Source: an uncultured Barnesiella sp. (GTDB lineage: Bacteria > Bacteroidota > Bacteroidia > Bacteroidales > Barnesiellaceae). From it: 64,000 nt of DNA. This document shows positions 1,388-60,715 of this stretch, piece by piece. The position numbers and the translations under genes are program-made. Every line of letters begins with the position of its first letter. Position 1 is the stretch's first letter. The notes beneath the pieces were generated by a model. The model searched no databases, had not been told where the DNA came from, and saw nothing but the letters and a program-made list of their open reading frames with translations. The stretch spans positions 1-64,000 of the forward strand of contig CALUFO010000012.1 of the NCBI GenBank assembly GCA_944320015.1. The letters are read 5' to 3'.

Positions 1388-2215
1388 TCAATCCCACGGT
1401 GCGGATTCCTGCTCCTCGAAGGTATAGAGCGCCGACGGGTGGTTGCGGGTGAGTGCCACCAGTTCTACATCTTTACCTACACGGATACCCTCTTCGTACA
1501 AACGGTTTTCGACCGTTTTGTAGGCCAACTCGGGGTGATTGTTGTCGCCACTCAGGTGACACAAAAAGATATTTCGCAACGTCGGGGTATAGATACGAGC
1601 CAGATATTCGGCGGTATGGGCGTTGTCCATGTGGCCGTTATCGGCCAAAATGCGCCGTTGCAGGTGAGGCGGATAGGTTCCGTGCAGCAACATGGCTTCG
1701 TCGTAATTCGACTCGATGACCAAGTAATTGGCCTGCCGCAGATATTTGTCGGCCGTGGGAGTAATGTGCCCCAAGTCGGTCGCAAAAGCGAAATACAACG
1801 ATCCGTAAGAAACCAGGAATCCCACATTGTCACTCCCGTCGTGAGGAACCTCAAAAGCGGTTATTGTAAAATCCTTAATCTTGAAGGGTATCTCTTTCAC
1901 AATGGGGCGATGCGCGCTGTAAATCTTGTCCACCATACAATAGTTGCGGTTCATGCCGTTCTTGATTGTTTCGGTGGTATAGATAGGGATGCCGTATTTT
2001 TCGCCCAATGTCCCGGCCGCCTTGATGTGGTCGGCATGGTCGTGAGTAATGCACAGAGCCACGATCTTCTCAAAAGGGATACCATACTCTCTCAAAACCT
2101 TCTTGATCGTGCGCACTCCTTTACCGGCATCGATCAGTATCCCATACTCTTCGGTGCCCAAATAATAACAGTTGCCACTGCTTCCGCTGGCAAGGCTTAG
2201 AAATTGTAAGCTCAT
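1388..2215 (-). CDS. MBL-fold metallo-hydrolase (YycJ/WalJ-like)
   Basis: A 275-residue metallo-beta-lactamase fold protein. It opens with LSLASGSSGNCYYLG and carries the zinc motif THDHADH near residues 55-61. Further likely ligands are His in VPHDGSDN, Asp in ATDLGH and His in CHLSGDNNHPE. The pattern fits the YycJ/WalJ branch, presumed nucleases or phosphodiesterases in the cytoplasm; the substrate cannot be told from sequence. I chose the ATG at 2215 because the Ser-Leu-Gln start matches the family and a purine-rich AAGGAT lies just upstream. An in-frame ATG 45 nt further upstream adds a non-conserved basic stretch. The gene is monocistronic by spacing. Confidence 0.85.
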   Translation of the reverse strand: MSLQFLSLASGSSGNCYYLGTEEYGILIDAGKGVRTIKKVLREYGIPFEKIVALCITHDHADHIKAAGTLGEKYGIPIYTTETIKNGMNRNYCMVDKIYSAHRPIVKEIPFKIKDFTITAFEVPHDGSDNVGFLVSYGSLYFAFATDLGHITPTADKYLRQANYLVIESNYDEAMLLHGTYPPHLQRRILADNGHMDNAHTAEYLARIYTPTLRNIFLCHLSGDNNHPELAYKTVENRLYEEGIRVGKDVELVALTRNHPSALYTFEEQESAPWD

Positions 2216-2334
2216 ATCCTTTTTTCTCCTCGGGGCACAAAGATAGTTTTTTGACGGCACAATAGAAAATTATCGGCCACAAGATATGGAGGGGAATATT
2301 TAAAATTTTCGAACCTGTTTGCCGGGCGAGAGCA

Positions 2335-10308: not shown

Positions 10309-10524
10309 GAAGTAATACGAAAAATCCGCTTCCGTTCAAGCAAATCCACACCCGCTTAGGCTTTGCGGCATAAACCGGATAGTGACCGCACGGCGACAAC
10401 ACCATATATCCCTGCGCGATGTAACCAGCAGCCATACGGCACATAAGACGGGAATCGGGTTATTCCCTATATCGTTTCACGACACAGGAGAGGAGTATAG
10501 AACTATCTCTTCGTTCCTATTGGT

Positions 10525-24967: not shown

Positions 24968-25034
24968 TGGGGTCAGTAGAGAATCAGCGAGAAGAAGGGT
25001 TGAGACCCATAGAACCAAAAACTGTATATGAGAA

Positions 25035-25097
25035 TTTAACTCCCTCCGGCTGCACCACCTCCTTATATTGCTGGGGCAATACAGGGAAAGAGTTTAA
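25035..25097 (-). repeat. Dispersed palindromic repeat, copy A (minus orientation)
   Basis: Read on the minus strand this is TAAACTC, a hairpin around GCAATATA, GGAGG, a short second hairpin GGTGCAGCC, then GGAGGGAGTTAAA. It shares this layout with copies at 45681, 58804, 58866, 58916, 60473 and 60576. It lies between dinB and the MBOAT operon; the rest of 24968-25145 holds nothing recognisable. Confidence 0.75.
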
Positions 25098-25145
25098 TGT
25101 ATCCGTTTGCAGGAAGAAATTGAAAGCCTAAGGGCACCCTGTGAT

Positions 25146-45551: not shown

Positions 45552-45680
45552 ATATTTAAACAATAACTATCATTAACAATTTTGAGAATGGCGGAGTTGA
45601 AAACTCCAACCAGTCCTTCCGCCCGAGGAGAAGAATTGAAGACCAAGAGGATTTAGCAATCTGTGTATGAAGGCATTTTT

Positions 45681-45727
45681 AACTTCTCCCCTGTGTTGCG
45701 CCAGCAATATAGGGGAGGAGTTTAAAT
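45681..45727 (+). repeat. Dispersed palindromic repeat, copy B
   Basis: AACTTCTCCCCTGTGTTGC, a 4-nt loop, GCAATATAGGGGAG, then GAGTTTAAAT. The hairpin arms pair fully, with G-U wobbles only in this orientation. This copy lacks the second hairpin. It lies in the 294-nt gap between DUF6132 and the IbrB-like gene, beside a second conserved segment at 45730-45777. Confidence 0.75.
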
Positions 45728-45729
45728 GT

Positions 45730-45777
45730 ATCCCCTACCACGAGCAGAGAGGGAACTTAAAAAAGAAAAGTTTAAAG
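45730..45777 (-). repeat. Second repeat type, copy 1
   Basis: Read on the minus strand, about 46 nt (TTAAACTT..TCTTTTTTA..GTT..CTGCTCGTGGTAGGGGAT) match 58750-58797 on the plus strand with roughly 8 differences. Both copies lie beside a dispersed palindromic repeat. Confidence 0.6.
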
Positions 45778-58749: not shown

Positions 58750-58797
58750 TAGTAAACTTCTCTTTTTTAGGTTATCTTTCTGCTCGTGGCAGGGGAT
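58750..58797 (+). repeat. Second repeat type, copy 2
   Basis: TTAGTAAACTT, TCTTTTTTAGGTT and CTGCTCGTGGCAGGGGAT match the reverse complement of 45730-45777 closely. It lies immediately before dispersed repeat copy C. Confidence 0.6.
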
Positions 58798-58803
58798 AGA
58801 TTT

Positions 58804-58870
58804 AAACTCTCCCTCTGTGTTCCCCGTGAGGGGAATATAGGGGGAGTGCCGTAGGCGAGGGGGTTTTAAA
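58804..58870 (+). repeat. Dispersed palindromic repeat, copy C
   Basis: AAACTCTCCCTCTGTGTTCCCC, loop GTGA, GGGGAATATAGGGGGAG, a short second hairpin TGCC-GTA-GGCG, then AGGGGGTTTTAAA. Here the loop-proximal pairs are CCCC/GGGG where other copies have GC or TTGC pairs, i.e. compensatory change. Confidence 0.8.
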
Positions 58871-58915
58871 CTCCTTTACCCCTGTGTTCCCTAAAATCGG
58901 CAAGGCGGTAGATTT
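58866..58915 (+). repeat. Dispersed palindromic repeat, partial copy D1
   Basis: Begins TTTAAACTCC and CCCTGTGTTCC like the other copies, then diverges through AATCGGCAAGGCGG. The 11-mer AATCGGCAAGG recurs inverted at 45783-45793. Confidence 0.5.
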
Positions 58916-58983
58916 AAACTCCTCCTCTGTGTTTTGCGGAGCAAAATATAGGGGAGGTGGCGCAAGCCGGAGGGGTTTAAATG
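58916..58983 (+). repeat. Dispersed palindromic repeat, copy D2
   Basis: A full copy with hairpin 1 (CTCCTCTGTGTTTTGC / GCAAAATATAGGGGAG), hairpin 2 (GGC-GCAA-GCC) and closing AAACTCC / GGAGGGGTTT. Positions 58918-58961 are identical over 44 nt to 60475-60518. Confidence 0.85.
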
Positions 58984-59066
58984 CTTTTATACAGGTTGTT
59001 CATTTCATAGAAACAGCGGCAATTTGCATAAGAAACGCAGATTGCCGCTGAAATTCTAACTAATCA

Positions 59067-60387
59067 TTATTGAGGAATTTCGTTGCCTTCACCATCATAA
59101 TACACACTGCCTTCATTCGACGAAGTGTAATTTGAATGATTATATCCCCACTTATATACCGTAGTGTTGGTGATGGAACCGGTGCCGCATTGAATGTCTC
59201 CGCCATGGTAACCGAATGAATTCCCTCCCTGCCCGATGTAATCGGCATAGCTGGTGCCGTATGAACCGCGATAGGCATGGATTTCCGAACCGGTGATGAC
59301 AATTTCCGGCACAGTTTCGTATGCGCCGATGGCAGGGGCACTCTTAGTGTCATCTCCAAAGCTACGGGCATGAACAATGGCATTGGTAATGGTTATCGTG
59401 CCGCAGGCATAGCTTCCGCATAAACAGTTACATTGCTTATCGTAATATTTCCACAATTTGTATGTTGACCATCGACTGTGCTATATCCGCCGATGGCGGC
59501 TCCGTCGGTTGCGCCCGTAACGCGCAATACATCTTCTTCCCTGTTGTTTCCAGATATGGTAAGACTGCTGCCGGTAGCCACATAAATACCTGATGCTCTG
59601 TTGTTGGTAAAATTCGAGACTATACTGTTATTGCCTAACACATAGATGGTCGGATTACCGCTGGGATAGTAACGCCGGGCACTACGTTGGCTTCCCAGCA
59701 CTCGGTGCCGTCGGCATAGGTGGTGCGCATCATCTGTATCCAACCTTTATCGCCGTCGTCGGTGCCCACCGAGCCTCGGTTGTTGGCGCATCGGGTGTAG
59801 CTGTTCACTTCCACTTGGGTGGCTTGTCCGGCCTGCGTGCCGCTGAGCAACACCCGCACTTTGGCCAGAGCGTGGGTGAAGGCGAGGGTGACGGGTTGGT
59901 CGTAGGTGGCGCCCGGCGCTTCGGCTCGCAGCACATAGGCCAGACCGCCCGTCTGGTCGCTGAGGTCTACCGTCTCATCGGTGGGATACCATGCGGTGAC
60001 GGTGGCCGGGGCTTTGCTTGTCCAGTAGAGTTGTTGATCAGGAAGCAAAGTCTTGTCGGCATTCAGCGTATAATTGGCGGTTTCATTGCCTAATTGCACG
60101 CCTATCATTTCCGAGCCGTCCCATTGCCACACGCTGCTCATACCGTCGCTGTTATCTTCCGTCACACGGCTCTGCGGAGCGTTCCACGGCTGCGCGGTGC
60201 TCTCTACATCGAGGGTGACGCCGCTGATTTGTAGCGGGTATTGTCCTTCGGGCAGACGGTTGTCGTCTACGATTTCGTCTTTCGTACAGGCGGTTACAAC
60301 TAAAATAGCAAGGGATAAAAGGAGTAGTTTGTTAAATTTGCTTAACAAACGGGGGGGGGTAAATTGAGCGCCTCTATTTTTCATCAT
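59067..60387 (-). pseudogene. Frameshifted fimbrillin-family lipoprotein gene
   Basis: Three successive frames on the minus strand make one gene. Codons from 60387 give a lipoprotein signal (lipobox VVTAC) and a fimbrillin-like domain (QWDGSEMIGVQLGN, VTAWYPTD, VTLAFTHALAKVRVLL) that ends VVPGVTIPAV before going out of frame near 59650. The next frame continues GNPTIYVLGNNSIVSNF and GNITISNVTVYAEA to about 59410. The third gives GTITITNAIVHARSFGDDT to the stop at 59067. The repeat-like second part resembles the nested beta-helix tails of such proteins. Two deletions or frameshifts have broken it. A C9 tract (60359-60351) lies between the start codon and the signal peptide. Confidence 0.75.
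60351..60359 (-). repeat. Homopolymer C9 tract near the fimbrillin start codon
   Basis: Nine consecutive C on the coding strand within codons 10-13. Slippage by one base would shift the signal peptide out of frame, as in phase-variable surface genes. Confidence 0.7.
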
Positions 60388-60472
60388 GATTCAGGAATGA
60401 GGGTGTTACTGCCGTGAAGATATATTTTTTGTGCGAGACCGCCAAATTTTAATTTTATTATCTCTCTTTTTT

Positions 60473-60548
60473 GCACTCCTCCTCTGTGTTTTGCGGAGCA
60501 AAATATAGGGGAGGTGGCACGCAAGTGACGGATGGGTTTAAAACTCTG
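60473..60548 (+). repeat. Dispersed palindromic repeat, copy E
   Basis: Same hairpin 1 as D2 (44 nt identical); hairpin 2 is GGCAC-GCAA-GTGAC and the tail GGATGGGTTTAAAAC. It lies in the 378-nt gap upstream of the fimbrillin pseudogene, which is thus bracketed by direct copies D2 and E. Confidence 0.85.
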
Positions 60549-60575
60549 GCTATAAATTTCTTGGGTGTCAAAAAT

Positions 60576-60652
60576 CAACCCCTCTCCTCGGGACTACTGT
60601 CCCTCGGTGTCTCCCCTATATCACTGCGTAACACAGAGGAGAAGTGTAAATA
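60576..60652 (-). repeat. Dispersed palindromic repeat, copy F (minus orientation)
   Basis: On the minus strand: CTCCTCTGTGTTAC, loop GCA, GTGATATAGGGGAG, second hairpin GGGAC-AGTA-GTCCC, then GAGGAGAGGGGTTG. Copies E and F are inverted relative to each other, 27 nt apart. Confidence 0.8.
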
Positions 60653-60715
60653 GTTCTCGCCTTACCCTCCAACTTACCAGCAACAGGAATTGGTTTGATT
60701 TGCTACTCTGCCCCG

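Follow-up and report, generated by a model that had tools for sequence, protein, structure and literature searches.

A family of dispersed repeats in a Bacteroidales genome probably consists of triplex-capable DNA elements that make up the non-coding half of a repeat-nuclease partnership, the other half being stand-alone DUF559 proteins (YcjD-like, with a Vsr fold); we put the probability of this reading at roughly 0.6. Triplex-forming repeats have been known for decades in E. coli and many other bacteria without a cause, and the link to DUF559, a "domain of unknown function," is a candidate explanation for both.

The source genome (2.62 Mb, 95% complete) contains, on its contig 12, the window, by which we mean the whole 64,000-nucleotide stretch of DNA that was analysed. 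The original prediction placed seven related elements in the window, and all seven were found there. A covariance model (R1), built from 21 seed elements from several genomes and searched against the window and related genomes, recovers six of them, 58866-58915 being a partial unit, and also finds one further, decayed copy (Table 1). The order of type C, partial unit and type A recurs at other loci, e.g., L043. The type A element at 60466-60542 has a single G-to-T change in its mirror block (GGATGGG), and it is faced by the type B element on the minus strand, so that the two form an inverted A+/B- pair. The region between the two element clusters (59060-60387, minus strand) is fimbrillin-like (Mfa_like_1), broken up across several frames, and contains a run of nine Gs at 60351-60359; it is possibly a broken or phase-variable gene.

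Table 1. Repeat elements in the window (window coordinates) and locations of a companion repeat elsewhere (locus coordinates). E-values are from the covariance model; those of the four full elements at 58797-60654 are flattered because these four are among the 21 seeds of the model, and the copies at 45673-45762, 25034-25102 and 10419-10505 are non-seeds.
Feature	Position	Strand	Details
Type C element	58797-58870	+	E 2.5e-22; mirror relation
Type C, hairpin 1	~58807-58846	+	purine arm GGGGGAG at 58840-58846, then mini-hairpin
Type C, mirror block GAGGGGG	58857-58863	+	
Partial unit (AAACTCCTTTACCCCTGTGTTCCC...) bridging type C and type A	58866-58915	+	between two full units
Type A element	58909-58981	+	E 7.5e-25; mirror relation
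Type A, hairpin 1	~58921-58957	+	purine arm GGGGAGG at 58951-58957
Type A, mini-hairpin	58959-58968	+	
Type A, mirror block GGAGGGG	58969-58975	+	
Type A element	60466-60542	+	E 2.7e-21
Type B element	60573-60654	-	E 6.1e-17; purine arm GGGGAGA, mirror block AGAGGGG
Truncated copy	45673-45727	+	hairpin 1 intact, mirror block lost; E 5e-8 over 45673-45762
Decayed type A copy	25034-25102	-	E 4e-4
Decayed copy, absent from the original prediction	10419-10505	-	E 0.005
GC-rich companion repeat	L031 128-310		
GC-rich companion repeat	L032 ~1410-1610 and 2130-2330		

The source genome carries about 65 or more copies (67 blastn matches with 58911-58983 as the query, 65 with a slightly longer query). 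Some stand alone, others form inverted pairs or arrays, and several contigs terminate in elements. Three types recur: A (AAACTCCTCCTCTGTGTT..AATATAGGGGAGG..GGAGGGGTTT), B (CACTTCTCCTCTGTGT..ATATAGGGGAGA..AGAGGGGTTGAA) and C (AAACTCTCCCTCTGTGTTCCCC..GGGGAATATAGGGGGAG..GAGGGGGTT). At many loci type A on one strand opposes type B on the other, and a GC-rich companion repeat of ~170-190 bp (GTTCATTCTTCTC...GATAAAGGCGG) often takes the place of the A+/B- spacer. An AAA_14/DUF4143 ATPase gene of the same genome (L032 2586-3770) has element arrays on either side. More widely, 35 of 393 Bacteroidales genomes contain matches to the model at a threshold of E 0.001. Within the genus, elements are common in three genomes (G000, G003 and G006), few in G002 and absent from five others. 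A pattern scan found relatives in ruminant "Bacteroidaceae" MAGs (RGIG2076, 4690, 6227 and 6483) and in CASFYQ01, which has contigs that match G003; it gave two matches in viral contigs, and the one inspected lacks the element layout.

Each element consists of hairpin 1, with a pyrimidine arm and a purine arm, followed by a linker mini-hairpin and GAGGGGTT. The layout common across families is CTCCCC..GGGGAG for hairpin 1, a small hairpin 2 (e.g., TGTCC-GCA-GGACA) and then GAGGGGT. Hairpin 1, scored over 17 pairs, has 88.4% of cells paired vs 49-66% for slid versions, and its covariation is 0.317 compared to a shuffle mean of 0.144, with 0 of 500 shuffles as high, which bears out the proposal that its pairs covary. 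In the layout first described for the elements, the outer stem, AAACTCC/GGGGTTT, is convincing in type A only. What is kept family-wide is a 3' block that is the mirror of the hairpin 1 purine arm and covaries with that arm. Among 908 distinct elements, the commonest arm/mirror pairs are GGGGAGG/GGAGGGG (367), GGGGAGA/AGAGGGG (215) and GGGGGAG/GAGGGGG (120), so the three main types are perfect mirrors, and the relation is kept within each of them and in rarer ones, such as GGGAAGA/AGAAGGG in L210. At the variable mirror positions, 2.70 of 3 match in these elements, vs 1.80 on average and at most 1.89 in 2000 shuffles that carry no phylogenetic control, because the 908 elements are related to each other; this stricter extraction supersedes an earlier, looser test (4.86 vs 4.56 of 8).

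The third strand of a purine-motif triplex is antiparallel to its purine strand. A 3' block that mirrors the purine arm is the hallmark of an intrastrand DNA triplex of this kind, a structure reported not to form in RNA (PMC4666352). The elements therefore look like DNA triplex repeats of the PIT/TM class, and their sequences predict that they can fold as triplexes. Because the linker is a mini-hairpin longer than the published second loop, they would be a variant of the class, with a hairpin in that loop, and not strict TM repeats.

What might spread such elements? The original prediction proposed a search for an enzyme gene with the same element on its flanks, and a DUF559 nuclease gene turned out to fit this description. 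The sole DUF559 gene of the source genome (L039 3109-3507) has elements on both sides, type A ~80 bp before it and type C directly after it on the opposite strand. A near-perfect tandem array of 213-bp units, with one type A element each, adjoins the gene (L039 3580-4170). In a survey of 99 genomes and a second set of 24, stand-alone DUF559 genes are flanked by elements in the source genome and about twelve other Bacteroidales: elements lie on both flanks in G062, G153, G242, G300 and G143, and at least one copy adjoins the gene in G322, G075, G291, G369, G370, G017 and G060, the last few of which score weakly. Within the DUF559 loci (~3.3 kb), 25 of 31 model matches fall within 300 bp of the domain (binomial p 8e-13, for matches that are not independent). 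A test independent of the covariance model found repeats common to both flanks in 20 of 32 stand-alone DUF559 genes, vs 0 of 11 DUF559 domains that form part of large proteins and 3 of 186 controls, which were genes drawn from element-rich loci (Fisher p 3e-17); the repeats beside many DUF559 genes are of other sequence, and the mirror block was assessed for only some. We found no paper tying DUF559 or ycjD to repeats, in a partial coverage of the literature, so the link appears to be new, though it may be noted elsewhere.

One site shows presence and absence of the whole arrangement. In the genus of G153, argC and argD lie 12-110 bp apart with nothing inserted in G036, G247, G386 and G323, whereas in G153, G401, G402 and G403 a block made up of a DUF559 gene end, an element pair, a DUF559 gene and a second element pair sits at the start of argD; the covariance model finds elements at this junction only in the latter genomes. 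This is an insertion polymorphism of a DUF559-element block, four with vs four without. The first ~42 bp of argD stand on both sides of the block in G153 and G401 (one locus in one lineage), and this repeat could be a target-site duplication or a later tandem duplication. In G402 the start of argD recurs in additional copies that are accompanied by an element pair but not by the gene. The source genome's own ferredoxin locus was considered as an empty site; it is rearranged and gives no clean comparison.

The proteins themselves are likely DNA nucleases. Three DUF559 proteins score 88-96 bits against PF04480, where a match of 93.4 bits compares with a curated cut-off of 20.6, and the conserved D-F-Y...E-x-D-G core is present. 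Among solved structures, a profile of ten DUF559 proteins matches an endonuclease-like protein (3hrl, 1e-32) and a "Mobile intron protein" (3r3p, 3e-6). In published profile work YcjD picks up Vsr (PMC1189080), and the DUF559 domain is also present in VsrA of Caulobacter (PMC12907096). Taken together, these matches make a Vsr-type nuclease of the PD-(D/E)XK group the likely assignment. A Vsr-like T.G signal was considered because the genus keeps a G.T pair beside TAGG, as do the ruminant relatives; it was rejected as a general rule, since the pair is missing from most other element families. In the partnership that we propose, an element would be extruded or exposed as single-stranded DNA, DUF559 would recognise the folded hairpin or triplex and nick or cut at or beside it, and repair or strand transfer would copy the element, or an element-gene-element block, to a new intergenic site.

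The alternative that survives best, though we consider it unlikely, is that the elements spread passively by slippage, template switching or gene conversion, and that DUF559 is a passenger at unstable sites, perhaps repairing them. Tandem arrays such as the 213-bp units fit this explanation, as do the triplex motifs tied to rearrangement in E. coli (PMC4666352) and the existence of element-rich genomes with no detectable DUF559 (G003, G006 and G146, each 99% complete), which indicate that DUF559 is not needed for element persistence and may not be the mobiliser. A search for another flanked gene in the DUF559-less genomes gave unrelated genes only. Co-occurrence of DUF559 and elements at the genome level is modest (16/25 vs 30/91, p 0.01), and in 1 of the 16 genomes the DUF559 match lies inside a large protein. 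However, passive spread does not account well for the specific flanking of stand-alone DUF559 genes, when compared with control genes and fused DUF559, or for the symmetric inverted copies that lie close against the gene in several phyla.

Improbable, too, is that the elements are REPs moved by a RAYT, an HUH/Y1 transposase acting in trans or since lost. The inverted pairs and arrays resemble those of REPINs and BIMEs, and elements of the genus show single-strand polarity, as the original prediction held. Nearly all departures from Watson-Crick pairing in hairpin 1 are G.U/G.T on the strand it named, and in the source genome that strand gives the better fold (DNA parameters) for 145 of 152 distinct copies, while no copy clearly prefers the opposite one. 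For the majority of other element families both strands fold about equally, so that the polarity given by G.T pairs, though real, is confined to the genus and a few relatives. Of the suggestion that single-stranded DNA of defined polarity may transpose, the DNA part fits; the polarity holds in the source genome and is absent from most related families. Nor do the elements favor one replication strand: 17 blocks agree with the GC skew and 15 oppose it. The source genome yielded no HUH/Y1 transposase, and no Y1_Tnp was found in G000, G003, G002 or G099; no element was found around the single Y1 gene of G006, and elements of ~75 nt with a triplex layout are not what this explanation would lead us to expect. 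One Y1 gene of RGIG6483 does lie near elements, but the Y1 genes of RGIG6483 (L171 1399-1851) and RGIG4690 (L172 1459-1926) adjoin short palindromes of their own (GTCTGAAAGACG; ACGTCGAAGACGT) and probably represent separate REP systems.

The loops of the elements also bear on whether DNA or RNA is the functional form. GNA triloops are especially stable loops of DNA mini-hairpins, and GNRA is the loop rule for RNA. In hairpin 2 (n=462), we counted 283 GNA, 45 GNYA and 3 GNRA loops, and in hairpin 1, 168 GNA, 66 GNYA and 10 GNRA; these counts are not independent because most distinct elements come from three genomes. Genome by genome, GNA leads the loop classes in 15 of 29. GCGAAGC hairpins are termed extraordinarily stable in the title of one paper (PMC10527192). 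The RNA three-way junction of the original prediction, e.g., a regulatory RNA or 3'-UTR under selection on one strand, could draw on the stable one-strand fold with G.U pairs, the covariation of hairpin 1 and an RNA folding z of about -5.5 (type A), but it is very unlikely given that the third block covaries as a mirror instead of a complement, the loops are not GNRA, copies between co-directional genes lie in either sense (28 sense, 37 antisense), the outer stem is lost outside type A, and an Rfam search matched only a tRNA and no family for the elements. We favor the DNA triplex reading because of the mirror covariation, the DNA-type loops and the absence of sense bias.

How far does the association with DUF559 extend? 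We examined 15 DUF559 genes from a plasmid collection that includes chromosome-sized records, and in eight the flank repeats clearly exceed those of shuffles: four from Deinococcus (inverted), and one each from Pseudanabaena, Picosynechococcus, Azospirillum lipoferum and N. gonorrhoeae. The other seven have no flank repeat within ~220 bp. Several genes of this collection lie inside operons or clusters (paaD-DUF559-paaZ, an hpa cluster, NAD(P) transhydrogenase genes). A search of phage records for DUF559 gave two weak matches. The DUF559 gene of E. coli is ycjD, which lies between sapF and fabI, is present in many strains and is followed by an inverted motif pair, one motif of which fits the published TM pattern (PMC4666352). 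The sapF-fabI interval holds either ycjD (L291 1692-2045) or an efflux (eef) operon (L288 4172-7614), and the TM motif persists there in most genomes with either. A simple insertion of ycjD with a matching empty site was rejected, since ycjD alternates with the eef operon.

It is tempting to generalize the partnership and propose that triplex repeats across phyla are both substrates and progeny of DUF559 (YcjD), which would recognise the DNA in its folded single-stranded or triplex state and propagate it. We advance this tentatively, at somewhat short of even odds. If it is true, PIT/TM/BoxC and DUF559 form one repeat-nuclease family reaching from Bacteroidales to E. coli, and a second REP-like system exists that is transposase-free, with repeat populations run by a nuclease without transposase chemistry.

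Several known systems share parts of this arrangement. The Vsr-like homing endonucleases (3r3p) are related nucleases by profile and are carried by a mobile block, but here there is no intron or intein, and DUF559 is a stand-alone gene of intergenic regions and operons, flanked by triplex repeats. Caulobacter VsrA is likewise a DUF559 domain protein; it differs in being a proposed mismatch-repair nuclease, with a functional link to a cytosine methyltransferase, in a study that leaves repeats unconsidered (PMC12907096). Like REP/REPIN sequences with RAYT (TnpA-REP), the elements are short palindromic repeats that occur as inverted pairs and as arrays and flank a low-copy nuclease gene. Unlike them, they are ~75 nt long with a third strand, and the flanked gene is DUF559 (PD-(D/E)XK, Vsr-like), with no associated HUH/Y1 transposase gene. 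The closest relatives are the purine-motif intrastrand triplex repeats known as PIT, TM or BoxC in E. coli and cyanobacteria (Hoyne & Maher; Holder et al. 2015, PMC4666352). The E. coli TM repeats (formerly BoxC or PIT) are intergenic, show no strand bias and occur as inverted pairs of two types, and a physical triplex has been shown for the E. coli motif (PMC4666352). The elements described here share the pyrimidine arm, the purine arm and a third strand mirroring the latter, as well as the dispersed, intergenic distribution without sense bias and the inverted pairs of two types. They differ in sequence and in their second loop, which is a mini-hairpin where the published TM loop has 3 nt and the published search a limit of 6 nt; in the genus, a G.T-rich GTGTT/AATAT or bulged-A segment further lengthens the stem. 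Holder et al. report that mobility functions were never found around TM sites, and they mention neither ycjD nor any DUF (PMC4666352). No partner gene has been reported for PIT/TM/BoxC, whereas DUF559 is a candidate partner for the elements described here.
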